Source: Acidobacteriota bacterium (lineage in GTDB: Bacteria; Acidobacteriota; Thermoanaerobaculia; Multivoradales; JAHEKO01). Taken from it: DNA of 37,314 nt. Numbering within the stretch: the first letter of the stretch is position 1; the number at the start of each line of letters is the position of its first letter. The notes beneath the pieces are model-generated. The model had not been told where the DNA came from. It did not search any database and was given only the letters and a program-made list of their open reading frames with translations. Below, piece by piece: positions 10,610-24,676 of the stretch. The DNA is taken from contig JAOTWP010000025.1 of the NCBI GenBank assembly GCA_029862975.1, positions 1 through 37,314 of the forward strand. Direction: 5' to 3'. The position numbers were made by a program, and so were the translations under genes.

Positions 10610-11824
10610 ATGGGATCGCTCCTCCCCAACCTGCTGCGCTTCGGACGGCTGCTCCGCGCCCTCGGGCTCGAGGTGCCGGCGGGGAGCATGCTGACGGCGG
10701 CCCGCGCGCTCGAGCACGTCGATATCGGCCGGCGCGGCGACTTCTACCACGCGCTGCGCTGCGTGCTCGTCCGTCGCGCCGCCGACCTGCCGCCCTTCGA
10801 CGCCGCGTTCCGTGCCTTCTGGCGCCGCCCTCCCGGGCGGCGGGTGAGGAACCGTCCGCGCGCCATGGGCGAGGAGATCCGCTTCGGCGAGCCGGAGGTC
10901 GATCCCCCGTCTCTGGCGGCGGAAGCGGGGGACGATCCGAGCTCCGGGGGGCCGCTCGCCGAGCCCCGGCACCTCGAGCTGGCCACCCACAGCGCCCGGG
11001 AAGCTCTGCGGCGGAAGGACTTCGCCCTTTACTCCGCCGCCGAGATCGCCGCCGCGGAGACGATGATGGCGCGGCTCGACTGGGAGGTCGGCTCGCGCCG
11101 CACCCGGCGCTGGCTCGCCGGCGCCGGCCCCGGCCTGGACCTGCGCCGGCTTCTGCGCAGCGCCGCGCGCCACGGGCAGGACGACCCGGTGCTGCCTCGA
11201 CGGCGGCGCAAGGTCCGCCGCCGTCCCCTCGTCCTGATCTGCGACGTCAGCGGCTCGATGGAGCGCTACACCCGCATGCTGCTCCACTTCTGCCACTCGC
11301 TGACCGGCGGTCTCGAGGGCGTCGAGTCGTTCGTCTTCTCGACCCGCCTCACTCGCGTGACGCCCGAGCTGCGGCGGGGGCGGATCAACGACGTTCTGCC
11401 CGCGCTGAGCGAGCGGGTGCACGACTGGTCCGGGGGGACGCGGATCGGGGAGGCGCTCGGCTCGTTCGCGCGCGACTGGGCGCGCCGGATCCTCGGCCAC
11501 GGCGCGGTCGTGCTGCTGATCTCCGACGGCTGGGACCGCGGCGATCCCGAGCTCCTGGCGCGGGAGATGGCCCGGCTGCAGCGCTCGTGCCATCGCCTCG
11601 TCTGGCTCAATCCGCTGCTCGGGGCGCCCGGCTACGAGCCCCTGACGCGGGGCATGCGAGCCGCCCTGCCGCTCGTCGACGACTTCCTACCGGTGCACAA
11701 CCTCGAGAGCCTGGAGACGCTGGCGCGCCATCTCAACCGGCTGCCGGAGGCCCGGTCGCGGCGACCGGTCGCGCCGCCGGGTCACGCCCTCTCGCGCCGG
11801 TCCAGGGCGGCGGTGCAGCGGTAG
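10610..11824 (+). CDS. VWA-domain protein (CoxE-like)
   Basis: 404 aa; MIDAS-like LICDVSGSMERYTRML, SGGTRIGEAL, VVLLISDGWDRGD; adjacent to the MoxR gene. Confidence 0.92.
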   Translation: MGSLLPNLLRFGRLLRALGLEVPAGSMLTAARALEHVDIGRRGDFYHALRCVLVRRAADLPPFDAAFRAFWRRPPGRRVRNRPRAMGEEIRFGEPEVDPPSLAAEAGDDPSSGGPLAEPRHLELATHSAREALRRKDFALYSAAEIAAAETMMARLDWEVGSRRTRRWLAGAGPGLDLRRLLRSAARHGQDDPVLPRRRRKVRRRPLVLICDVSGSMERYTRMLLHFCHSLTGGLEGVESFVFSTRLTRVTPELRRGRINDVLPALSERVHDWSGGTRIGEALGSFARDWARRILGHGAVVLLISDGWDRGDPELLAREMARLQRSCHRLVWLNPLLGAPGYEPLTRGMRAALPLVDDFLPVHNLESLETLARHLNRLPEARSRRPVAPPGHALSRRSRAAVQR

Positions 11825-12399
11825 CAGAAGGCGGCGGTCTTGAGGTCGATTCCCACCACCTCGGGAGAGCTCGCCATGACGCAGCGGCCGTCGGAGCAGT
11901 GGACCAGGCCGCAGGCGTGGCCGAGCTCGTGGATCGCCTCCTTGACGAGGCGGGCCTGGAGCAGCGCGCGGTCGGCCGGCAGGCCGTAGCGCTCCGGGGC
12001 CAGGCGGTGACTCGACACCAGGGCGGCCCGGCCGTCGAGCTGGGCCTCTCCGAAGACGAACGTGAGAACGGGGATGAACAGATCTGCGTCCGTGACCCCC
12101 AGGACCTTTGCCGTTCCCGGATGGTGGCGGAGCAGCAGCGCCAGCAGCAGCCGGGAGTTGTACTGGCCGCGGGAGCCGTCGAAGGCCGTCTCGGGATCGA
12201 AGTTCGGCGCCTGCCGCTCGACCTCGAGCCCGAACGTGGCCCGGAGCTCGCCGGCGAGCGGCTCCAGGAGCGCGCTGCGCTCGCCGCAGTAGAAGGGAAC
12301 CAGGGCGAGAACGCCCGGCCGCGCTTCAGCCGCCGGGCCGGCCGCCGCGGCAGGGCCCGGCGCTCGGGGCAAGCCCGGATCTCGACCGGCAGGCGGCAC
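11782..12399 (-). CDS. amzA: Archaemetzincin-type zinc metalloprotease
   Basis: 205 aa; HELGHACGLVHCSDGRCVM...DLKTAAFCYRC matches the HExxHxxGxxHC...CVM...FCxxC signature. Convergent 43-bp overlap with the CoxE-like CDS. Confidence 0.9.
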   Translation of the reverse strand: MPPAGRDPGLPRAPGPAAAAGPAAEARPGVLALVPFYCGERSALLEPLAGELRATFGLEVERQAPNFDPETAFDGSRGQYNSRLLLALLLRHHPGTAKVLGVTDADLFIPVLTFVFGEAQLDGRAALVSSHRLAPERYGLPADRALLQARLVKEAIHELGHACGLVHCSDGRCVMASSPEVVGIDLKTAAFCYRCTAALDRRERA

Positions 12400-12412: not shown

Positions 12413-13746
<1,334 letters not shown>

Positions 13747-13750
<4 letters not shown>

Positions 13751-15466: not shown

Positions 15467-15497
15467 CTCAACGCTCGCTGTTGAGCTCGGCAACAGC
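15467..15497. promoter_or_regulatory. Two overlapping inverted repeats, candidate activator-binding site
   Basis: CTCAAC-N7-GTTGAG (15467-15485) and GCTGTTG-N7-CAACAGC (15477-15497), both with perfect arms, about 85-115 bp upstream of the -24/-12 element. Confidence 0.55.
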
Positions 15498-15581
15498 CGG
15501 AACGCCGGCGGCGCTCGACCTCTCGGCGCGTAACTCGCTGCACACAAGATGCTTAGCGCTACGTGACGCGGCGGTGCGCCG

Positions 15582-15597
15582 TGGTCCGCGCCTTGCA
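15582..15597 (+). promoter_or_regulatory. Sigma-54 (-24/-12) promoter
   Basis: TGGTCCGCGCCTTGCA: GG-N10-GC spacing with TTGCA at -12; upstream of the 15642 operon and divergent from an NtrC-family regulator. Confidence 0.75.
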
Positions 15598-15641
15598 CAG
15601 CAAGGGGGCGGGGCGACCCGAGCCCCAGACCGGAGGACGCG

Positions 15642-16439
15642 ATGGAACCCCAGAAGATTCGCCTCAGAGAATGTCTCGCCGCCGCCGCCGTGGTTCTCGT
15701 CCTGATCGCCGCCCTGCCCCTGCTGGGGGTGGGTCTGTTCGTCCTCCGCTTCGTCCTCGTGGCGCTCGCCGTGGCGGCGCTGACGGCCGGCGTGGTGGCG
15801 TTCGCGGCGAGCCGGCGCTTCCGCCGCCGCTTCCTGGCCGCGATCGGGCCCCGCTACGACTACAAGGGGCTGCACCTCTCCACCGACGTCGCCCTCGACC
15901 CCGCCCACTCCTGGGCGCTCGTCGACCCGGACGGCGCCTTCGTCGGCGTCGACGATCTCGCCGCGGCCTGTCTGGGGCCGGTCGAGCGGGTCGAGCTGCC
16001 CGCGACGGGGCGGCGGGTGGAGCGCGGCGAGGCCCTGTTCACGCTCAGCCGCGCCGGTCGCGACCTGCCGGTACCGTCTCCGGTCAGCGGCACGGTGAGC
16101 GCCCGCAACGAGGCGCTGGTGAGCGACCCGCAGCGCGTCAACCGCGACCCCTTCGGCCTGGGCTGGGTCGCCCGGCTCCGCACCGACAACCCGCGCGCCC
16201 AGCGCCGCCGGCTGCTGCGCGGCCTGCGCGCCCAGGAGTTCTTCCGCCACGAGGTGGATCGGCTCGTGGGCACGCTGGGCAGCGACTCGTCCGCGATCAC
16301 CTCCCTCGCCGACGGCGGCGCGGTCGTCGCCGATCTCCATCGAGCGATCGACTTCCCGACCTGGCAGCGGCTGCGCCGCCAGTTCTTCGCCGCCGGCCGG
16401 GAGGAAGAAGCCCTTTCGGCGACCCGGGCCAGCGAGTAG
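15642..16439 (+). CDS. Membrane-anchored GcvH-like (lipoyl-domain-fold) protein without lipoyl lysine
   Basis: 265 aa; two N-terminal TM helices, then LPATGRRVERGEALFTLSRAGRDLPVPSPVSGTVSARNEAL, which matches the GcvH hairpin/SPVSG pattern, with Gly at the lysine position. Confidence 0.7.
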   Translation: MEPQKIRLRECLAAAAVVLVLIAALPLLGVGLFVLRFVLVALAVAALTAGVVAFAASRRFRRRFLAAIGPRYDYKGLHLSTDVALDPAHSWALVDPDGAFVGVDDLAAACLGPVERVELPATGRRVERGEALFTLSRAGRDLPVPSPVSGTVSARNEALVSDPQRVNRDPFGLGWVARLRTDNPRAQRRRLLRGLRAQEFFRHEVDRLVGTLGSDSSAITSLADGGAVVADLHRAIDFPTWQRLRRQFFAAGREEEALSATRASE

Positions 16440-16469
16440 CCCGAGCGCCGCGACCACCTGGAGGATGCC

Positions 16470-17339
16470 ATGGAGCGTCGCACCTTCCTCAAGTTGACGG
16501 CCGCCGCCGGGGCCACGTCCCTGGCCGGCTGCGCCAGCGCCCCCCGTAGCGCCGAGGACGCCGGCGAGGACTACGCGGTCCTCGTCGACCTCACCCAGTG
16601 CGCCGGCTGCCGCATGTGCGAGTTCGCCTGCGCGGAGGCCAACGGGCTGCCGGAGCCCGACTACGACGAGAAGACGGTCGACCAGGTCCGGCGCGAGCCT
16701 TCCGAGAGGCAGTGGCAGGTCGTCAACCGCTTCGAGACCAGCGCCGGAGAGGTCTACGCCCGGCGCCAGTGCATGCACTGCCTCGAGCCCGCGTGCGCCG
16801 CCGGGTGCCTCACCAAGGCCCTCGTCAAGACCGACGAGGGACCCGTGGTCTGGCGCGCCGACAAGTGCATGGGCTGCCGGTACTGCATGATCTCGTGCCC
16901 CTTCGACGGGCCCAAGTTCGAGTACCACAGCCCCGTGCCCAGGATCCAGAAGTGCCAGATGTGCTGGGAGCGCCTGCGCGCCGGGGAGCGACCGGCGTGC
17001 GTGGAGGACTGCCCGATGGAGGCCCTCGTGTTCGGCAAGCGCTCGGAGCTCCTGGAGCTGGCGCGCCAGCGCATCTACGGCAATCCGGGCGACTACGTGC
17101 CCCACATCTACGGCGAGCACGAAGCGGGCGGCACCAGCTGGCTCTATCTGTCCCCGGTTCCCTTCGCGGAGCTGGGCTTTCCCACGAACCTCGGCACGAC
17201 GTCGTACCCCGAGCTCACCCGCGACTTCCTGACCGCCGTGCCGGTGGTCCTCACCGTCTGGCCGGCCTTCCTGCTGGCCCTGCGGCGGGCCAACGTGGGT
17301 GACGACGAAACCGCCGGCAGCCCGGCGAGGGAGGAGTGA
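16470..17339 (+). CDS. Tat-exported 4Fe-4S ferredoxin-type subunit (DmsB/NrfC/PsrB-like), possible lipoprotein
   Basis: 289 aa; Tat-like RRTFLKLTAAAGATSLAGC with lipobox-like LAGC; CAGCRMCEFAC, CMHCLEPACAAGC, CMGCRYCMISCPFDGP, CQMCWERLRAGERPACVEDC. Confidence 0.92.
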   Translation: MERRTFLKLTAAAGATSLAGCASAPRSAEDAGEDYAVLVDLTQCAGCRMCEFACAEANGLPEPDYDEKTVDQVRREPSERQWQVVNRFETSAGEVYARRQCMHCLEPACAAGCLTKALVKTDEGPVVWRADKCMGCRYCMISCPFDGPKFEYHSPVPRIQKCQMCWERLRAGERPACVEDCPMEALVFGKRSELLELARQRIYGNPGDYVPHIYGEHEAGGTSWLYLSPVPFAELGFPTNLGTTSYPELTRDFLTAVPVVLTVWPAFLLALRRANVGDDETAGSPAREE

Positions 17340-18595
17340 CCATGGCCGTCCTGGACTTCGAATCCCCGCGCGGAGCGCTCGCCGTCCTGCGCCGCGACCT
17401 GCGGCCCAAGGGACGGCTCCTGACCCCGTTCAACGTCGTCTCGGCGCTCATCATGGCGACGACCGCGGTGATCCTGGTCTTCCGCTTCGCCTTTGGCCTG
17501 GGAGCGGTGACGAACCTCGACCAGCGGTTCCCCTGGGGGCTGTGGATCGGATTCGACGTCGTGGCCGGCGTCGCCCTGGCCGGCGGCGCCTACGTCGTCA
17601 CCTTCCTCGTCTACATCCTGAGGCAGGAGCAGTACCGGCCGATCGTGCGGGTCACGGTCCTCAACGGCTTCCTGGCCTACGTCTTCTACGCCGGCGCCCT
17701 CGTGCTCGACCTGGGCCGGCCGTGGAACGTCGTCAATCCCATCATCGGCAACTCCTTCGGCCTCACCTCGGTGCTGTTCCTCGTCGCCTGGCACTTCCTG
17801 CTCTACATGACGGCCGAGCTGGTCGAGTTCTCGCCCGCGATCGCCGAGTGGCTGGGCTGGCGTCGGCTCCATCGGATCCTCGTGGGGATGACCGTCGGCG
17901 CCGTGGTCTTCGGCATCACGCTGTCGACGCTCCACCAGTCCGGGCTCGGGGCCCTCTACCTCATGGCCAAGCCGAAGATCCACCCGCTGTGGTACTCCGA
18001 GCTCATCCCGCTGCTGTTCTTCGTCTCGAGCATCTTCGCCGGCCTTTCCATGGTGATCGTCGAGGGCAGCCTGACCCGCCGGATCTTCGAGGACCGGGTG
18101 GGCTCCCGCCTGCGCCGCTCGCACGACGACATCCTGCTCGGCCTTGCCCGGATCGCCGGCGGCACGATGTTCGTGTACCTGTTCCTCGAGGCGATGAAGA
18201 TCCTGCACGGCCAGCTGTGGCGCGAGATCCGGGAAGGCTGGGGCGCCTGGTACCTGCTCGAGGTCCTCGGCCTCGTGGCCTTTCCCATGGTGCTGCTGCT
18301 CTACGGCGGAGTCCGCGGCAAGCTGCCGGCCGTGCGCGCCGGGGCGGCCCTCGCGCTCGCCGGCGTGATCCTCAACCGGCTCAACATCTCGGTCATCGCC
18401 TTCCGCTGGGACGAGCCGCTCCACTACGTGCCGACGTGGATGGAGCTCGTCGTCACGGCGGGCATCCTCTCCGCCGAGATCTGGGTGTTCCGCTGGGTCG
18501 TGGGTCGGCTGCCGGTGCTGGGTCGTCGGCCCGCCTGGGCCGAAGAACCCGGCCGCCACGGCGCGAGCGTCGAGACACGCCACGAGGCGGCCTGA
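17336..18595 (+). CDS. NrfD/PsrC-like polytopic membrane subunit
   Basis: 419 aa, multiple TM helices; typical HybB/NrfD order after a ferredoxin subunit; 4-bp overlap with it. Confidence 0.9.
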   Translation: MTMAVLDFESPRGALAVLRRDLRPKGRLLTPFNVVSALIMATTAVILVFRFAFGLGAVTNLDQRFPWGLWIGFDVVAGVALAGGAYVVTFLVYILRQEQYRPIVRVTVLNGFLAYVFYAGALVLDLGRPWNVVNPIIGNSFGLTSVLFLVAWHFLLYMTAELVEFSPAIAEWLGWRRLHRILVGMTVGAVVFGITLSTLHQSGLGALYLMAKPKIHPLWYSELIPLLFFVSSIFAGLSMVIVEGSLTRRIFEDRVGSRLRRSHDDILLGLARIAGGTMFVYLFLEAMKILHGQLWREIREGWGAWYLLEVLGLVAFPMVLLLYGGVRGKLPAVRAGAALALAGVILNRLNISVIAFRWDEPLHYVPTWMELVVTAGILSAEIWVFRWVVGRLPVLGRRPAWAEEPGRHGASVETRHEAA

Positions 18596-18611
18596 TTCAA
18601 GGGAGAAGGAC

Positions 18612-19289
18612 ATGGACTTCCTGCAGACAAAGGGTCTCGAGTACCTGCTGGCGATCGCCTACCTCGTTCTTCTCGTGCCCTTCTGGCGCTTCCTGACGGG
18701 ATCGCGCGGCCCCGCGCCGCAGCCCGCCCGCGCCGTGGCCCGGGCTCAGGACCGCCCGTGGTTCGCCGTCCCCGACGGCTTCCACTTCCACCGCGGCCAC
18801 ACCTGGGCCCGGGAAGAAACGCCTGACCTCGTCCGCGTCGGCATGGACGACTTCGCCCACGTCCTGCTCGGCCCGGTGGACGGCCTCGACCTGCCCGCGC
18901 CGGGCAGCCGGATCACGGCCGGAGAGAACGGCTGGAAGGTGCGGCTCAATGGCGACGAGCTGCCGATTCTGGCCCCCGTCTCGGGCGAGGTGGCCGAGGT
19001 CAACGCCGACGCCGCCGACATCTTCGGGTCCGGACGCGGCGATCCCTACACGGGCGGCTGGCTGCTCAAGGTCCGAGTGCCTTCGGCCCCCGGGGTCCTG
19101 AAGAACCTCCTCCCCGGAAACCTCGCACGGGCCTGGATGGACGACGAGTCGCGGGCTCTCTCGACCGCCATGAGCCCCGAGCTGGGCACCGTCCTCCAGG
19201 ACGGCGGCATGCCGGTGGCCGGCCTGGCCCGCGAGCTGGCCGGCGACGGCTGGCGCGACTTCGCCCGGCGAGCCCTGCTGACGGACTGA
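18612..19289 (+). CDS. Second membrane-anchored GcvH-like protein without lipoyl lysine
   Basis: 225 aa; N-terminal TM, FHRGHTWAREETPDLVRVGMDDFAHVLLGPVDGLDLPAPGSRI...ILAPVSGEVAEVNAD is GcvH-like; the lysine position is Gly (RLNGDELPILAPVSG). Confidence 0.8.
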   Translation: MDFLQTKGLEYLLAIAYLVLLVPFWRFLTGSRGPAPQPARAVARAQDRPWFAVPDGFHFHRGHTWAREETPDLVRVGMDDFAHVLLGPVDGLDLPAPGSRITAGENGWKVRLNGDELPILAPVSGEVAEVNADAADIFGSGRGDPYTGGWLLKVRVPSAPGVLKNLLPGNLARAWMDDESRALSTAMSPELGTVLQDGGMPVAGLARELAGDGWRDFARRALLTD

Positions 19290-19443: not shown

Positions 19444-21264
19444 ATGTACCTTTTCAGAGGGCGGCTTTGTGGACGCATCTGCCGGGACTGCCCCGAGGAT
19501 CTGGCGGACGTCACGGTCCGCCTCTACCGACTGCGCGAGGACCAGGACGCCACGCGACTGGCCACGGCGCAGACCAAGCAGACCTTCGGCCAGCTCAAGC
19601 CGGCGGAGGTGAAGAAGAAGCAGTCGTCGCTCCTGGCCGAGGCCAGGACGGACCAGAACGGAGCGTACTGCTTCGAGCTCGATCGCGACGACTACGACGG
19701 CGGCGCTTTCGAGGTCGACCTGGTCTTCGAGCGTGCGCCCGGCCAGGAAGAGCCGGCGGCCAAGCCGCTGCAGTTCACGCTCACGACGTTGCAGCCCCAG
19801 TGGCGCCAGACCGAGAAGGGCCTGGTCTGGGGTTGGGACTACTGCCTTCCCCACCGCCTCTGGTGCTTCATCCGCGGCCTGCTCGGCGCCTGGGTGATCT
19901 GCGGCAAGGTCGAGATCTGCGACACCGGCGCTCCGCTGGGCGGCGTGCGAGTCAAGGCCTTCGATCGCGACTGGCTCCAGGACGACGCCCTCGGCGAGGC
20001 CATGACCGACGGCAGCGGCCACTTTCGCATCGACTACACGAAGGCCGATTTCGAGCCCGGCACGTTCCTCGACGTCGAGCTCTTCGGCGGCCCCGACCTC
20101 TACTTTCGGGTCGAGACCGCCAGCGGCGTGCCGCTCCTCATCGAACCGCCCTCGCGAGGGCGCGACGCCGACCGCGAGAACGTCGGTCCCTGCTTCTGCG
20201 TCGAGCTCTGCATCGAGGAGATGCCCGATCAGCCGCAGGACGAGCCGCCGCCGGTCTTCCTGCGGGTCGGAGGCTACGACTACGCCACGCAGATCGACAG
20301 CGCCCCGGCCGGCACCGGCTTGACCACCGGCAGCGGACGGGCCTTCTACTCGAACAATCGGCTCAACGGCGTGCTGCCCAAGAAGCTCAACGGCAACCCG
20401 ATGGAGTATCAGTTCGACACCCGGGAGATCCAGGCCGACGGGACGCCGATCACCGCCTGGGCCACCGTCGGACTGGCGCAGGTCGCCCGCACCCGCATCG
20501 GCGACCTCCTGCACTACGCTCCGGCCTTCCCCGGCGACCCGAACCCGATCAAGGCCCAGGCCTACACGGTCAACGGCGACCCGGGTGAAAAGGAAGCCGC
20601 CGTGGTCGGTGGCTGGATTCGGGTGCCCCAGGAGAGCGACGTGTTCGCGCCTCAGGGGTACTTCCAGCCCAACGGGAACATGATCAACTTGATCTCGACG
20701 AGCCTCGCACCCGACGCCGGGGTGAATCTCGCGGGCCTGGTCGCGGGCAACAGCTCCACGTCGACGGGCGTGCCGCTGGTCCAGAACCGCCACTTCTCCA
20801 TTCGCATGCGGGTGCGAGAGGTCGGCACGATCGGGCCAGGCATTCCGGCGGGCACCTGCCAGCACATCGCGATCAACAACACGCGCTATGACGGCTACGT
20901 GCGGCACCCTTCCTGGATGCCCGACGTAGCGAACAACGAGCTGACCGTCAACATGGTCGACATCCAGCAGTTGCAGGTCAACGGCTGCTCCCAGATCGGC
21001 AACGACCTGGATGTGGTCTTCACCGCCGCACACCCGACCCTGGGGAATGTCACGGTGTGGATGACCGGGCCCGGTGGACCCTACAGCTTCACCGAGCCGG
21101 CGGCCGTGCCCGGAGAGCGCTTCGGGGTCGCCAACCCGAACTTCGTGGTGGCCGACCTGGCGCCCTGTGCCTACGTGGTGCACCTGAGCGTTCAGGTGCT
21201 GCTCACCACCGGCGACTCGATTCCCGTCAACCAGCACGATCACATCGCCTTCACCAAGGCTTGA
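19444..21264 (+). CDS. Uncharacterised 606-aa protein with a carboxypeptidase-regulatory/transthyretin-like beta segment
   Basis: Long ORF after AAGGAG; VCGKVEICDTGAPLGGVRVKAFDRDWLQDDALGEAMTDGSGHFRIDY resembles CarboxypepD_reg-like repeats; no obvious signal peptide. Confidence 0.8.
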   Translation: MYLFRGRLCGRICRDCPEDLADVTVRLYRLREDQDATRLATAQTKQTFGQLKPAEVKKKQSSLLAEARTDQNGAYCFELDRDDYDGGAFEVDLVFERAPGQEEPAAKPLQFTLTTLQPQWRQTEKGLVWGWDYCLPHRLWCFIRGLLGAWVICGKVEICDTGAPLGGVRVKAFDRDWLQDDALGEAMTDGSGHFRIDYTKADFEPGTFLDVELFGGPDLYFRVETASGVPLLIEPPSRGRDADRENVGPCFCVELCIEEMPDQPQDEPPPVFLRVGGYDYATQIDSAPAGTGLTTGSGRAFYSNNRLNGVLPKKLNGNPMEYQFDTREIQADGTPITAWATVGLAQVARTRIGDLLHYAPAFPGDPNPIKAQAYTVNGDPGEKEAAVVGGWIRVPQESDVFAPQGYFQPNGNMINLISTSLAPDAGVNLAGLVAGNSSTSTGVPLVQNRHFSIRMRVREVGTIGPGIPAGTCQHIAINNTRYDGYVRHPSWMPDVANNELTVNMVDIQQLQVNGCSQIGNDLDVVFTAAHPTLGNVTVWMTGPGGPYSFTEPAAVPGERFGVANPNFVVADLAPCAYVVHLSVQVLLTTGDSIPVNQHDHIAFTKA

Positions 21265-21442: not shown

Positions 21443-22648
21443 TCAGCCCTCGCTGGTCATGAGGAACAGGGGGCGCTTCTCGAAGCTGCGGTAGTGGGGG
21501 CGCAGCCGGTCGACGTTGTAGTGCTTCGCGACGTCCACCACCTTCTTGGTCGAGGTCACGACGTCGATGGGCATGTTGTCGTAGCGCCCGTTGCGCAGCA
21601 CCACCAGCCGGCCGTACTTGCCGTCCATCAGGAGATCGAGGGCGAGGTTGCCGTAGGCCATGGGCACGATCGAATCGAGCGCGTCCGGGTCGCCCGAGCG
21701 CACCAGGTACCCGAGCTTCTGGGTCACGGTGTCGATCTTCTTGCCCTTGTTGTAGGCCGGAGCCAGAGCCTTCAGCCGCTCCGAGACCTGCTCGCCGATG
21801 CCCCCCAGCTTGGCGTGGCCGTAGGCGTCTCGCGCCTCGTCCGCGAAGACCATCTCGCCGCCCTCGAACCTGGCGCCCTCGGAGACGAGCAGCACCGAGT
21901 AGCGGCTGGGATTGCGCCAGCGATCCGCGACGAGCAGCTCGGCGAGCCGCTCGAGCGTGAAGACGTGCTCGGGGATGACGCAGCGGTTGGCGGCTCCCGC
22001 CATGGTGGGCAGCATGGCCGTGAAGCCCGCGTAGCGGCCGAACACCTCGAGCACGAGGAAGCGCTCGTGCGAGCCCGCCGACGTGCGCAGCCGGTTCGTC
22101 ATCTCGATGGTCCGGGTGACGCAGGTGGAAAACCCGATGCAGTAGTCGGTGCCCGGGACGTCGTTGTCCATCGTCTTGGGAATGGCGACCACCTTCACCC
22201 CCTCCCGGTGGAGCCGCACGCCGTAGCTCAAGGTGTCGTCGCCGCCGATCGGAATCAGGTAGTCGATGCCCAGGAAGTCGAGGTTGGCGAGCACCTCGGC
22301 GGTCAGGTCGTTCGTCTCCTCGCGGTAGCGATCCTCGAGGTGGGCGGGGACCTCGGCCCGCCGCACCTTGCCGGGGTGGGTGCGCGACGAGTGCAGAAAG
22401 GTGCCGCCGGTGCGACCCGCCCGGTTCACGGCCTCTTCGGTAAGCACCTGCAGGCAGTCCGAGTTGTCGGCCTCCGGGTCCCGCACCAGCTCGACGAGGC
22501 CGGCCCAGCCGCGGCGGATGCCGAGCACCCGGTAGCCCTCGGCCAGGGCCTCGATGGTCACCGCCCGGATGGCCGGGTTGAGCCCCGGCACGTCGCCGCC
22601 ACCGGTCAAGATGCCGATGACGCCGCGGGTCTTGCCGACCTCCGCCAT
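21443..22648 (-). CDS. 6-phosphofructokinase, probably PPi-dependent type
   Basis: 401 aa; ILTGGGDVPGLN, IGGDDTLSYG and PKTMDNDV. Asp after GGD and Lys before TMDND are typical of PPi-PFKs. Confidence 0.92.
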   Translation of the reverse strand: MAEVGKTRGVIGILTGGGDVPGLNPAIRAVTIEALAEGYRVLGIRRGWAGLVELVRDPEADNSDCLQVLTEEAVNRAGRTGGTFLHSSRTHPGKVRRAEVPAHLEDRYREETNDLTAEVLANLDFLGIDYLIPIGGDDTLSYGVRLHREGVKVVAIPKTMDNDVPGTDYCIGFSTCVTRTIEMTNRLRTSAGSHERFLVLEVFGRYAGFTAMLPTMAGAANRCVIPEHVFTLERLAELLVADRWRNPSRYSVLLVSEGARFEGGEMVFADEARDAYGHAKLGGIGEQVSERLKALAPAYNKGKKIDTVTQKLGYLVRSGDPDALDSIVPMAYGNLALDLLMDGKYGRLVVLRNGRYDNMPIDVVTSTKKVVDVAKHYNVDRLRPHYRSFEKRPLFLMTSEG

Positions 22649-22655
22649 CGCCCTG

Positions 22656-23663
22656 CTAAGCGCCGAAGGCGGCCAGCCGACCGATCAGGTCGACGACCCG
22701 GTTCGAGTAGCCCCACTCGTTGTCGTACCACGAGACGACCCGCGCGAAGCCGTCGCCGCGCGACGCCGTCGAGAGGGAATCGAAGATCGAGGAGTGGGGA
22801 TTGCCGATGATGTCGCTCGACACCAGGGGATCCTGCGAGTACTCGACGACCGCCTGCATGGGCCCCTCCGCGGCTCGCCGCACCGCGTCGTTGATCTCCG
22901 CGGCCGTCGGCTTCTTCTCGAGCCGGCAGACGAAGTCGACGATCGAGCCGTCGGGGACGGGCACCCGCATGGCCATCCCGTCGAGCCGCCCGGCGAGCCG
23001 CGGCAGGACCTTGCCCACGGCGCGGGCCGCGCCGGTCGACGTCGGGATGATGTTGTCGGCCGCCGCCCGGCTGCGCCGGATCGACTTGTGCGGCACGTCC
23101 GCCAGGCGCTGATCGTTGGTGTAGGCGTGCACCGTGGTCAGGAACCCCTCCTGGATGCCGAAGGCGTCGTCGAGGATCTTGGCGAGCGGCGCCAGGCAGT
23201 TGGTGGTGCAGGAGGCGTTGGAGACGATCCGGTGGGCGGGCTCGAGCTCGTGGTCGTTGACCCCCAGGACGGCCATGAAGTCCACCTCGTCTTTCGGCGG
23301 CACCGTGAGGACGACCCGCCGGGCGCCGGCCGCCAGGTGCTTCTCGAGCGGCTCCCGGGTCCGGAAGACGCCCGTCGACTCGACGACGACGTCGACCCCG
23401 AGCTCCTTCCACGGCAGGCGCGCGGGGTCGCGCTCGTCGGTCATGGCGACCCGGTCGCCGCCGACGTGCATGACGTCGCCGTCGATCCTCACTTCCTTGT
23501 CGAAGCGCCCCATCACCGTGTCGTAGCGCAGCAGGTACGCGAGCTGCTCGTTGTCGAAGAGGTCGTTGACCGCGACGACCTCGAGGTCCTCCCGGTCGCT
23601 GAGAATCCGGAAGACGCTGCGCCCGATGCGGCCGAACCCGTTGATCCCGACCCGCGCGCCCAT
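22656..23663 (-). CDS. gap: Type I glyceraldehyde-3-phosphate dehydrogenase
   Basis: Start MGARVGINGFGRIGRSVFRIL inside ORF 22656..24728; SNASCTTNCLAP, TTVHAYTNDQ, SWYDNEWGYSNR. Confidence 0.96.
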   Translation of the reverse strand: MGARVGINGFGRIGRSVFRILSDREDLEVVAVNDLFDNEQLAYLLRYDTVMGRFDKEVRIDGDVMHVGGDRVAMTDERDPARLPWKELGVDVVVESTGVFRTREPLEKHLAAGARRVVLTVPPKDEVDFMAVLGVNDHELEPAHRIVSNASCTTNCLAPLAKILDDAFGIQEGFLTTVHAYTNDQRLADVPHKSIRRSRAAADNIIPTSTGAARAVGKVLPRLAGRLDGMAMRVPVPDGSIVDFVCRLEKKPTAAEINDAVRRAAEGPMQAVVEYSQDPLVSSDIIGNPHSSIFDSLSTASRGDGFARVVSWYDNEWGYSNRVVDLIGRLAAFGA

Positions 23664-24676
23664 CACGCGGCCTCCCGCTCTTCGATGGCGATGAACCGGC
23701 GGATCAGATCGACCACCCGGTGCGCGTAGCCCCAGCCGTTGTCGTACCAGGAAAGGGTCTTCGACACGCGGTCGCCCAGGATCATCGTCGCCTGGGAGTC
23801 GAAGGTGCTCGAGTAGCTGCTGCGCACGATGTCGCTCGAGACGATGGGATCGTCCTCGTAGTGGAGGATGCCCTGCCAGTCGCTCGACGCGGCCGTGCGC
23901 ACCACCTCGTTGACGGCGAACTGCGTCACCGGCTGCTCGTGCCAGCAGACCAGATCGACCACCGAGCCGTTGGCCACGGGCACGTTGATGGCGCCGCCGG
24001 AGATCCGTCCGGCGAGCTCGGGGAGAAGCTCCTCGACGACGTGCGCCGCGTTCGTCGCCTGGGGAATGATGTTCTCGGCGGCGGCGCGGCCGCGCCGCGG
24101 GTCTTCGGAGGGCACGTCCGCCAGCCGCTGCTGGTTGGTGTAGGCGTGGACGGTGCTCAGGAAAGCGCGCTCGATCCCGAACGCGTCGCTCAGGATCTTG
24201 ACGATCGGCGCCGCGCAGTGCGCCGTGCAGGAGGCGTTGGAGATGATCCGGTGCTGGGGACCGAGCTGGTCGTCGTTGACGCCCATCACCACGGTGAGAT
24301 CGGGCGGGTCCTTGGGCGGCGCGCAGAGGATCACCCGCCTCGCGCCGCGCTCCAGATGCTGCTCGAGCTCCTCGCGGGTGCGCTCCCGGCCCGCCGCCTC
24401 GACGACCAGGTCGACGCCCAGGTCGGCCCAGGGGGCGTTGCTCGGCGCGCCGAAGGAGGTCATCGGGATCCGGCGGCCGGCGACATAGAGATGGCCGTCG
24501 CGGATGCTGAGCTCGTCGGGGAACGGGCCGAGGATGGTGTCGAAGCGGATCAGGTACTCGATCGTCGCGTGGTCCGCGATCTCGTCGATGGCGACGATCT
24601 CGATGTCGCGGTTCTTGTAGAGGATCCGGAAGAGGTTCCTGCCGATCCTGCCGATTCCCATCAATCCTATTCGCAT
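23663..24676 (-). CDS. Divergent second GAPDH/erythrose-4-phosphate dehydrogenase family paralogue
   Basis: 337 aa; SNASCTAHCAAP, STVHAYTNQQ, SWYDNGWGYAHR; tandem to gap with TGATG overlap; altered MGIGRIGR and AIDEIAD near the cofactor site. Confidence 0.92.
   Translation of the reverse strand: MRIGLMGIGRIGRNLFRILYKNRDIEIVAIDEIADHATIEYLIRFDTILGPFPDELSIRDGHLYVAGRRIPMTSFGAPSNAPWADLGVDLVVEAAGRERTREELEQHLERGARRVILCAPPKDPPDLTVVMGVNDDQLGPQHRIISNASCTAHCAAPIVKILSDAFGIERAFLSTVHAYTNQQRLADVPSEDPRRGRAAAENIIPQATNAAHVVEELLPELAGRISGGAINVPVANGSVVDLVCWHEQPVTQFAVNEVVRTAASSDWQGILHYEDDPIVSSDIVRSSYSSTFDSQATMILGDRVSKTLSWYDNGWGYAHRVVDLIRRFIAIEEREAA

Follow-up and report, generated by a model that had tools for sequence, protein, structure and literature searches.

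Why should two relatives of GcvH, the H protein of glycine cleavage, flank a membrane-bound electron-transfer gene pair, and what could they do there without the lysine that is lipoylated in GcvH? The question is raised by a four-gene operon (positions 15642-19289, plus strand) in contig JAOTWP010000025.1 (assembly GCA_029862975.1) of an Acidobacteriota bacterium. The whole stretch of DNA analysed, 37,314 nucleotides long, is referred to here as the window. An initial annotation, made from the DNA letters without database searches, had described the gene order as GcvH-like, ferredoxin with a twin-arginine translocation (Tat) signal, NrfD-like and GcvH-like, and gene calls together with Pfam and NCBIfam matches bore this order out. 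The feature had been drawn from position 15467; the first gene starts at 15642, and the part preceding it is the intergenic and promoter region. The features of the operon are:

15642-16439, plus strand: GcvH-like protein 1 (GcvH1); two transmembrane helices, an H-protein-fold domain with Gly139 at the hairpin tip, and a C-terminal helical extension with DGG
16470-17339, plus strand: HmcB-like iron-sulfur protein (Fer4); Tat signal RRTFLKL, lipobox-like LAGC, hydrophobic C-terminal tail
17342-18595, plus strand: HmcC-like membrane protein of the NrfD family; about 10 transmembrane helices
18612-19289, plus strand: GcvH-like protein 2 (GcvH2); HmcD-like transmembrane helix joined to an H-protein-fold domain with Gly114 at the tip
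18615-18698, plus strand: HmcD-like transmembrane segment of GcvH2 (residues 2-29)

Both GcvH-like proteins keep the H-protein fold and lack the lipoyl-lysine

Both outer genes passed the Pfam GCV_H model (69.3 bits for GcvH1 and 48.5 bits for GcvH2, cut-off 22.2), while their scores against the GcvH equivalog TIGR00527 were far below the cut-off of 115.85 (54.8 and 46.6 bits, respectively). In the alignment, the lipoyl-lysine column held Gly in both proteins, as the initial annotation had stated, and Lys, in the context ESVKA, in all eight canonical GcvH proteins of the same class. None of the 54 GcvH-like relatives from this class had Lys in that column. In a wider set of 148 GcvH-like proteins, four did (within KREA, KEKI, KRDL, and KGTL), none of them in an ESxKA context. 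AlphaFold models, which were confident over the H-domain, placed each glycine in a turn between two hairpin strands: residues 131-137 and 140-145 for Gly139 of GcvH1, residues 106-112 and 115-120 for Gly114 of GcvH2. The best Foldseek matches of the models were true H proteins, with TM-scores normalised to the target of 0.91 (1onl, for GcvH1) and 0.87 (1htp, for GcvH2). A lipoylatable lysine at the hairpin tip, which the initial annotation had named as one result that would speak against its reading, was looked for in the alignment and in the models and was absent from both. The results thus show that in both proteins the H-protein fold, as modelled, is kept and the lipoate site is lost. Neither protein is a member of the GcvH family, since the defining lysine is absent and the equivalog score is under the cut-off.

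The models also predicted the N-terminal membrane anchors that the initial annotation had noted: two helices in GcvH1 (residues 3-23 and 31-55) and one in GcvH2 (residues 2-29). The first 30 residues of GcvH2 matched HmcD below the cut-off (25.2 bits, cut-off 34), a likeness that the initial annotation had missed. The closest described comparison is LarG, a lipoylated GcvH relative encoded near the act operon of Pelobacter carbinolicus and paired with a dihydrolipoamide dehydrogenase (PMC3543383). GcvH, LarG, and the window proteins share the H-protein fold and the core motifs HxW, PVSG, and DPY/F..GW, and LarG, too, is encoded near a respiratory complex; unlike GcvH and LarG, the window proteins lack the lipoyl-lysine and have membrane anchors and a C-terminal extension.

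The genome contains two GCV_H genes and four NrfD genes, and both GCV_H genes flank one and the same NrfD gene. The three further NrfD genes (contigs C20, C28, and C116) lie near frames with multiple CxxCH motifs, without GcvH-like neighbours. The glycine decarboxylase gene gcvP is present (contig C48). A canonical GcvH was not found in this 93%-complete assembly, and one is present in a genome of the same genus; its absence here is probably an assembly gap.

The core pair resembles HmcB-HmcC and scores below the cut-offs of Hmc, Hyb, and Qrc

The product of the third gene belongs to the NrfD superfamily: it passed the Pfam NrfD model (56.7 bits, cut-off 25.8), has multiple transmembrane helices, and is encoded next to an iron-sulfur (Fer4) protein. 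The best NCBIfam match of the latter was HmcB (333.5 bits, cut-off 420) and that of the NrfD protein was HmcC (364.3 bits, cut-off 550). HybA and HybB of hydrogenase 2 were the second-best family matches (207.9 bits, cut-off 263, and 251.5 bits, cut-off 450), and the QrcD score of the NrfD protein was 85.6 bits against a cut-off of 570. All of these scores are below the cut-offs, and the HmcB and HmcC proteins of relatives are likewise below the Hmc cut-offs. The Tat signal and the lipobox-like motif reported by the initial annotation are present in the iron-sulfur protein; the lipobox cysteine is common to the homologue in a same-genus genome (G042, locus L063) and not to more distant members. 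When relatives of HmcC were sought by sequence among solved structures, none were found.

The operon resembles Hmc of Desulfovibrio (HmcABCDEF) in the HmcB-HmcC order, in having, right after HmcC, a transmembrane segment with a sub-cut-off likeness to HmcD, in the presence of regulator genes in the cluster, and in an HmcB with a Tat signal and a hydrophobic C-terminal tail (PMC10924467). It differs from Hmc in its sub-cut-off scores, in two H-fold domains, a haem-sensor kinase and an NtrC-type regulator, and in that HmcA (16 haems), HmcE (cytochrome b), and HmcF (cytosolic) are not encoded in the operon, which has four genes only, in the same order in L063. Qrc (QrcABCD) likewise has a 10-helix NrfD-family subunit and a periplasmic iron-sulfur partner; QrcA and QrcB were not found in the window operon, and neither were hydrogenase genes, which sets it apart from HybA-HybB. 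Because the cut-offs and the partner subunits of all three systems fail, the module was placed outside Hmc, Hyb, and Qrc, and membership in each was ruled out. HmcBC-like modules with other partners have been described (PMC10924467), and HmcC-type subunits have been proposed to be electrogenic quinone subunits like QrcD, the direction of electron flow still being uncertain (PMC6303296). One NrfD protein from the class of the window, at locus L099, does pass the QrcD model (score 588.1, cut-off 570), and both L099 and the similar L100 are flanked by GcvH-like genes; the association with GcvH-like proteins is therefore not confined to an Hmc-like complex. The Qrc-type clusters of L099 and L100 also hold a Tat/molybdopterin-binding-like protein and a pentahaem cytochrome.

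The GcvH-like genes are conserved neighbours of HmcB in at least ten phyla

Conservation of the neighbourhood was surveyed in public genomes, using HmcB alone as the seed in order to avoid circularity, and the best 80 loci were taken. These loci hold the nearest relatives of the window HmcB, and the figures are valid for that clade rather than for all HmcB proteins. Gene calling favoured hidden Markov model matches, so that flanking genes lacking a match are less certain.

A GcvH-like gene was found within 6 kilobases (kb) of HmcB at 72 of the 80 loci. Seven of the eight remaining loci were truncated on at least one side, leaving L149 as the sole GcvH-less locus with full flanks. At 31 loci, each flank extended for 6 kb or more; 30 of these had a GcvH-like gene (two or more in 26) and all had HmcC; a haem kinase was present in 28, a match to the regulator model in 30, archaemetzincin in 22, and a small cytochrome in 8. 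A c7-type or pentahaem cytochrome gene lies inside the operon of many relatives. The carriers belong to more than ten phyla, among them Acidobacteriota, Bacteroidota, Gemmatimonadota, Calditrichota, Ignavibacteriota, Chlorobiota, Krumholzibacteriota, Fidelibacterota, Myxococcota, Thermodesulfobacteriota, and Pseudomonadota. These labels were taken from record titles, mostly of metagenome bins, and single ones may be wrong. Within the class of the window, homologous clusters were found in many families, and the exact gene order is kept in L063. Thus, where the initial annotation had allowed that an unconserved neighbourhood would count against it, conservation was observed instead, with up to three H-like subunits in this widespread module. 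At five loci (L079, L084, L085, L086, and L102), GcvH-like genes, membrane-anchored where complete, were seen with no HmcB or HmcC adjoining in the stretch read.

Relatives of the GcvH-like subunits include fusions with receiver domains

The GcvH-like subunits recur in five forms. In form (a), represented by GcvH1, one or two transmembrane helices precede the H-domain. Form (b), represented by GcvH2, consists of an HmcD helix and an H-domain encoded directly after hmcC (47 cases); 42 of 45 start at most 150 base pairs (bp) from the end of hmcC, all on the same strand. At L078, the HmcD helix is encoded by a separate gene for 64 amino acids beside hmcC, and the GcvH-like genes are elsewhere in the locus, which agrees with a later fusion of the HmcD helix to the H-domain. 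In form (c), a receiver domain is inserted between the transmembrane helix and the H-domain, and the phospho-acceptor motif, DLKMP or DFKMP, is present in every full-length case (examples are L092-L095, from the family or order of the window, L125, L126, L139, L147, and L180). Operons of this form include a pentahaem cytochrome, HmcB, HmcC, and the haem kinase. In a soluble variant with a receiver and an H-domain, the Asp was kept in all seven proteins inspected. Form (d), found in Bacteroidales upstream of hmcB (L134, L143, L145, and others), is a protein of about 560 amino acids with a signal peptide, a binding-protein-like domain (weakly matched; E 0.0046 in L134), a transmembrane helix, and the H-domain. 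In form (e), a conserved four-Cys segment, CxWMxxGxxxYKLCDxxxxCxxC, precedes the H-domain at 12 loci (L111, L112, L117, L122, L124, L129, L136, L144, L148, L153, L154, and L160); the segment is a possible metal or iron-sulfur site.

The net charge after the transmembrane segments of the GcvH-like proteins is positive. Because of this charge, the receiver fusions of form (c), and the order of binding-protein-like domain, transmembrane helix, and H-domain in form (d), we place the H-domain in the cytoplasm. The receiver-type loci differ from the others in gene content: archaemetzincin was found in 0 of 15, against 38 of 57 other loci, and the pentahaem cytochrome in 12 of 15, against 3 of 57, some loci in these comparisons being truncated. 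Loci of the receiver type group together in the HmcB tree, yet their distribution takes about five changes. Small Cys-rich proteins with the segment CPLLKEVVMLYCDAC...DCPLY are encoded just before hmcB (L064, 4644-4898; L067, 6574-6816) or fused to a GcvH-like domain (N-terminus of L099, 4264-5310); the single such segment that was scanned had no Pfam match.

A predicted haem-sensor kinase, an NtrC-type regulator, and a candidate sigma-54 promoter lie next to the operon

The divergent genes and the candidate promoter are:

11782-12399, minus strand: archaemetzincin-like (M54) protease; start codon uncertain; a frequent member of the module
12413-13750, minus strand: NtrC-type response regulator; receiver, sigma-54 AAA+ domain, Fis-type helix-turn-helix
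13747-15399, minus strand: histidine kinase; two transmembrane helices, periplasmic domain with haem-c motifs CLSCH and CATAGCH, HAMP, HisKA, HATPase
15582-15597, plus strand: candidate sigma-54 (-24/-12) promoter TGGTCCGCGCCTTGCA, 44 bp upstream of GcvH1

The regulator is of the NtrC type: it has a receiver, a sigma-54 AAA+ domain whose motif reads HERGAFTGA in translation (GERGAFTGA-type), and a Fis-type helix-turn-helix. The kinase, by its motifs, fits a c-haem periplasmic sensor kinase, with CxxCH and a second haem motif between two predicted transmembrane helices. Its Pfam match to the c-haem PAS-like periplasmic sensor family was weak (14 bits, cut-off 27). The pair of haem-c motifs was present in all 56 related kinases. 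Two haem motifs have been described in periplasmic sensors of Geobacter and Anaeromyxobacter (PMC3831638). Sensors of that c-haem PAS-like type (GSU0935 and GSU0582, and the two-motif Gsu0591 and Gsu0599) are likewise periplasmic, with CxxCH and a second haem motif; unlike them, the kinase described here is regularly tied to this electron-transfer cluster. Haem-bearing Cache domains, which are a different family, bind nitric oxide when joined to signalling modules (PMC12889525). The signal read by the sensor of the kinase may be a redox state or a gas or other ligand. The third divergent gene matched archaemetzincin with 73.4 bits and carries the M54 motif, HELGHACGLVHCSDGRCVM...CYRC, in agreement with the signature HEXXHXXGXXHCX4CXM plus CXXC (PMC3427221). 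Neither this gene nor the two haem motifs of the kinase had been noticed in the initial annotation.

Control of the operon by sigma-54 had also been proposed there. A plain consensus scan with up to two mismatches gave no more matches than were found in shuffled sequences, and the candidate was therefore judged by a weighted score, by where it lies, and by comparison with relatives. By the weighted score, TGGTCCGCGCCTTGCA was the top plus-strand site of the window; of the 74,598 positions of the two strands together, only 3 scored as high, and it outscored all 60 shuffles of its own region. In the upstream regions of the operons of relatives, 20 of 69 reached p<=0.05, and the mean score was 6.3 on the sense strand versus 2.3 on the antisense strand. 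The rpoN gene is present in the genome. The proposal is thus supported by a candidate site and by the machinery to use it.

Other genes of the window

An open frame truncated by the contig end (1-2238, minus strand) encodes a multihaem cytochrome with 13 CxxCH motifs, a possible electron partner. Downstream of the operon, a 606-amino-acid protein (19444-21264, plus strand) has weak transthyretin/carboxypeptidase-regulatory-like matches and was not found at the corresponding place in L063. The minus strand at 21443-24676 carries a phosphofructokinase-like gene followed by two tandem glyceraldehyde-3-phosphate dehydrogenase-like genes, as judged by eye from the translations.

Discussion

That the two GcvH-like proteins are not parts of glycine cleavage, but accessory proteins that lack lipoate, are tethered to the membrane, and serve a quinone/iron-sulfur module, as had been suggested in the initial annotation, is supported by our results; the scaffold or adaptor role it assigned to them is one possibility only. 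As inert cytosolic caps or assembly scaffolds, the H-like domains would stabilise HmcC and HmcD and take no part in signalling, which would suit the transmembrane anchors, the fusion with HmcD, the tight adjacency to hmcC, the loss of any catalytic residue, and the lack of a receiver domain in the window copies. The intact-Asp receivers in the same subunit of relatives and a haem kinase in nearly every cluster would then be hard to explain, and we consider pure scaffolding somewhat unlikely. That they have a regulatory role is no less likely, because the H-like subunit of relatives bears an intact receiver and the cluster has a c-haem kinase.

That the H-like domains act as redox carriers of electrons or thiols at the cytosolic face, through a cofactor other than lipoate, appears improbable. 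The 12 cases of the four-Cys form, and the lipoyl groups borne by this fold elsewhere, would fit such carriers, but no Cys motif occurs in either window protein (GcvH2 contains no Cys and GcvH1 two isolated ones). It is very improbable that they are degenerate or mis-annotated lipoyl carriers, modified at another lysine and serving a lipoate-linked dehydrogenase. Homology to GcvH is clear, and Lys occurs in the lipoyl column of the four distant members mentioned above; GcvH1, however, contains only Lys5 and Lys75, neither near the hairpin, Lys109 of GcvH2 falls within a strand of the model and not at the hairpin tip, and no gene for a lipoyl enzyme or dehydrogenase was present in the cluster. 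Lipoylation at another lysine was ruled out on these positions. The GcvH-like genes could also be chance neighbours of an ordinary ferredoxin/NrfD pair, as the GcvH-less L149 might suggest; with such genes at 30 of the 31 complete HmcB-seeded loci and in at least ten phyla, the probability of this is close to nil, and the neighbourhood survey ruled out chance neighbours and decaying gcvH copies alike.

The reading that we favour, and hold with middling confidence, is that the operon encodes an Hmc-type quinone/cytochrome c module with cytosolic, non-lipoylated H-fold subunits for docking or regulation, whose expression is set by the two-component system encoded divergently from it. If HmcC, HybB, and QrcD are taken as models, the HmcC-like protein would bind menaquinone. 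HmcB, exported by Tat, would connect c-type cytochromes of the periplasm with the menaquinone site of the 10-helix HmcC, passing electrons one way or the other. GcvH2 would be the HmcD helix of a physical complex with an H-fold domain added to it, and GcvH1, anchored by two helices, a further subunit. At the cytosolic face, the lipoate-free H-like domains would bind proteins, in docking or in regulation. The kinase, through its two-haem-c periplasmic sensor, would phosphorylate the NtrC-type regulator encoded beside it and so turn on the sigma-54 promoter. In relatives with a receiver between the anchor and the H-domain, the kinase could directly control what state the complex is in; the receiver fusions suggest that the contact made by the H-domain is used for phosphorelay control in at least part of the family.

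Several points weigh against this picture. The receiver in the window is located on a separate regulator and not on an H-like protein. No cytochrome gene adjoins the operon, the nearest one seen being the 13-CxxCH frame about 13 kb away; many c7-type domains are encoded in the genome. Function by analogy is uncertain, since HmcB and HmcC of the window are under the Hmc, Hyb, and Qrc cut-offs, and the contacts proposed among the H-like domains, HmcC, and the kinase are drawn from gene arrangement and single-chain models. A further proposal goes beyond the reading that we favour: the module may be a widespread class of respiratory complex, so far undescribed, whose lipoate-less H-fold subunits are a direct target of a haem-sensing phosphorelay. 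The phosphorelay would gate a quinone/proton-linked enzyme post-translationally through the receiver-GcvH protein; in species such as the present one, the contact would be equivalent but uncoupled. We regard this as speculative and, on balance, unlikely.

The HmcB-HmcC core pair is familiar, unlike the H-fold subunits or the link between them and a haem-sensor system. In the open-access literature on GcvH or H protein with NrfD, receivers, Hmc, Qrc, archaemetzincin, and haem sensors, neither the association nor receiver-GcvH proteins were described, which is no proof that they have not been reported. The findings mean that a large set of GCV_H-scoring genes in anaerobic and sediment bacteria of at least ten phyla is linked to an energy-conserving membrane module and has no part in glycine cleavage. 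They suggest that the H-protein fold has been taken up both into a respiratory complex, as a subunit, and into response regulators, as an output domain. With this module, the sensing and control of quinone-linked electron transfer could be tested directly, and sequenced isolates such as Maribellus luteus XSD2 (locus L143) are found among its carriers.

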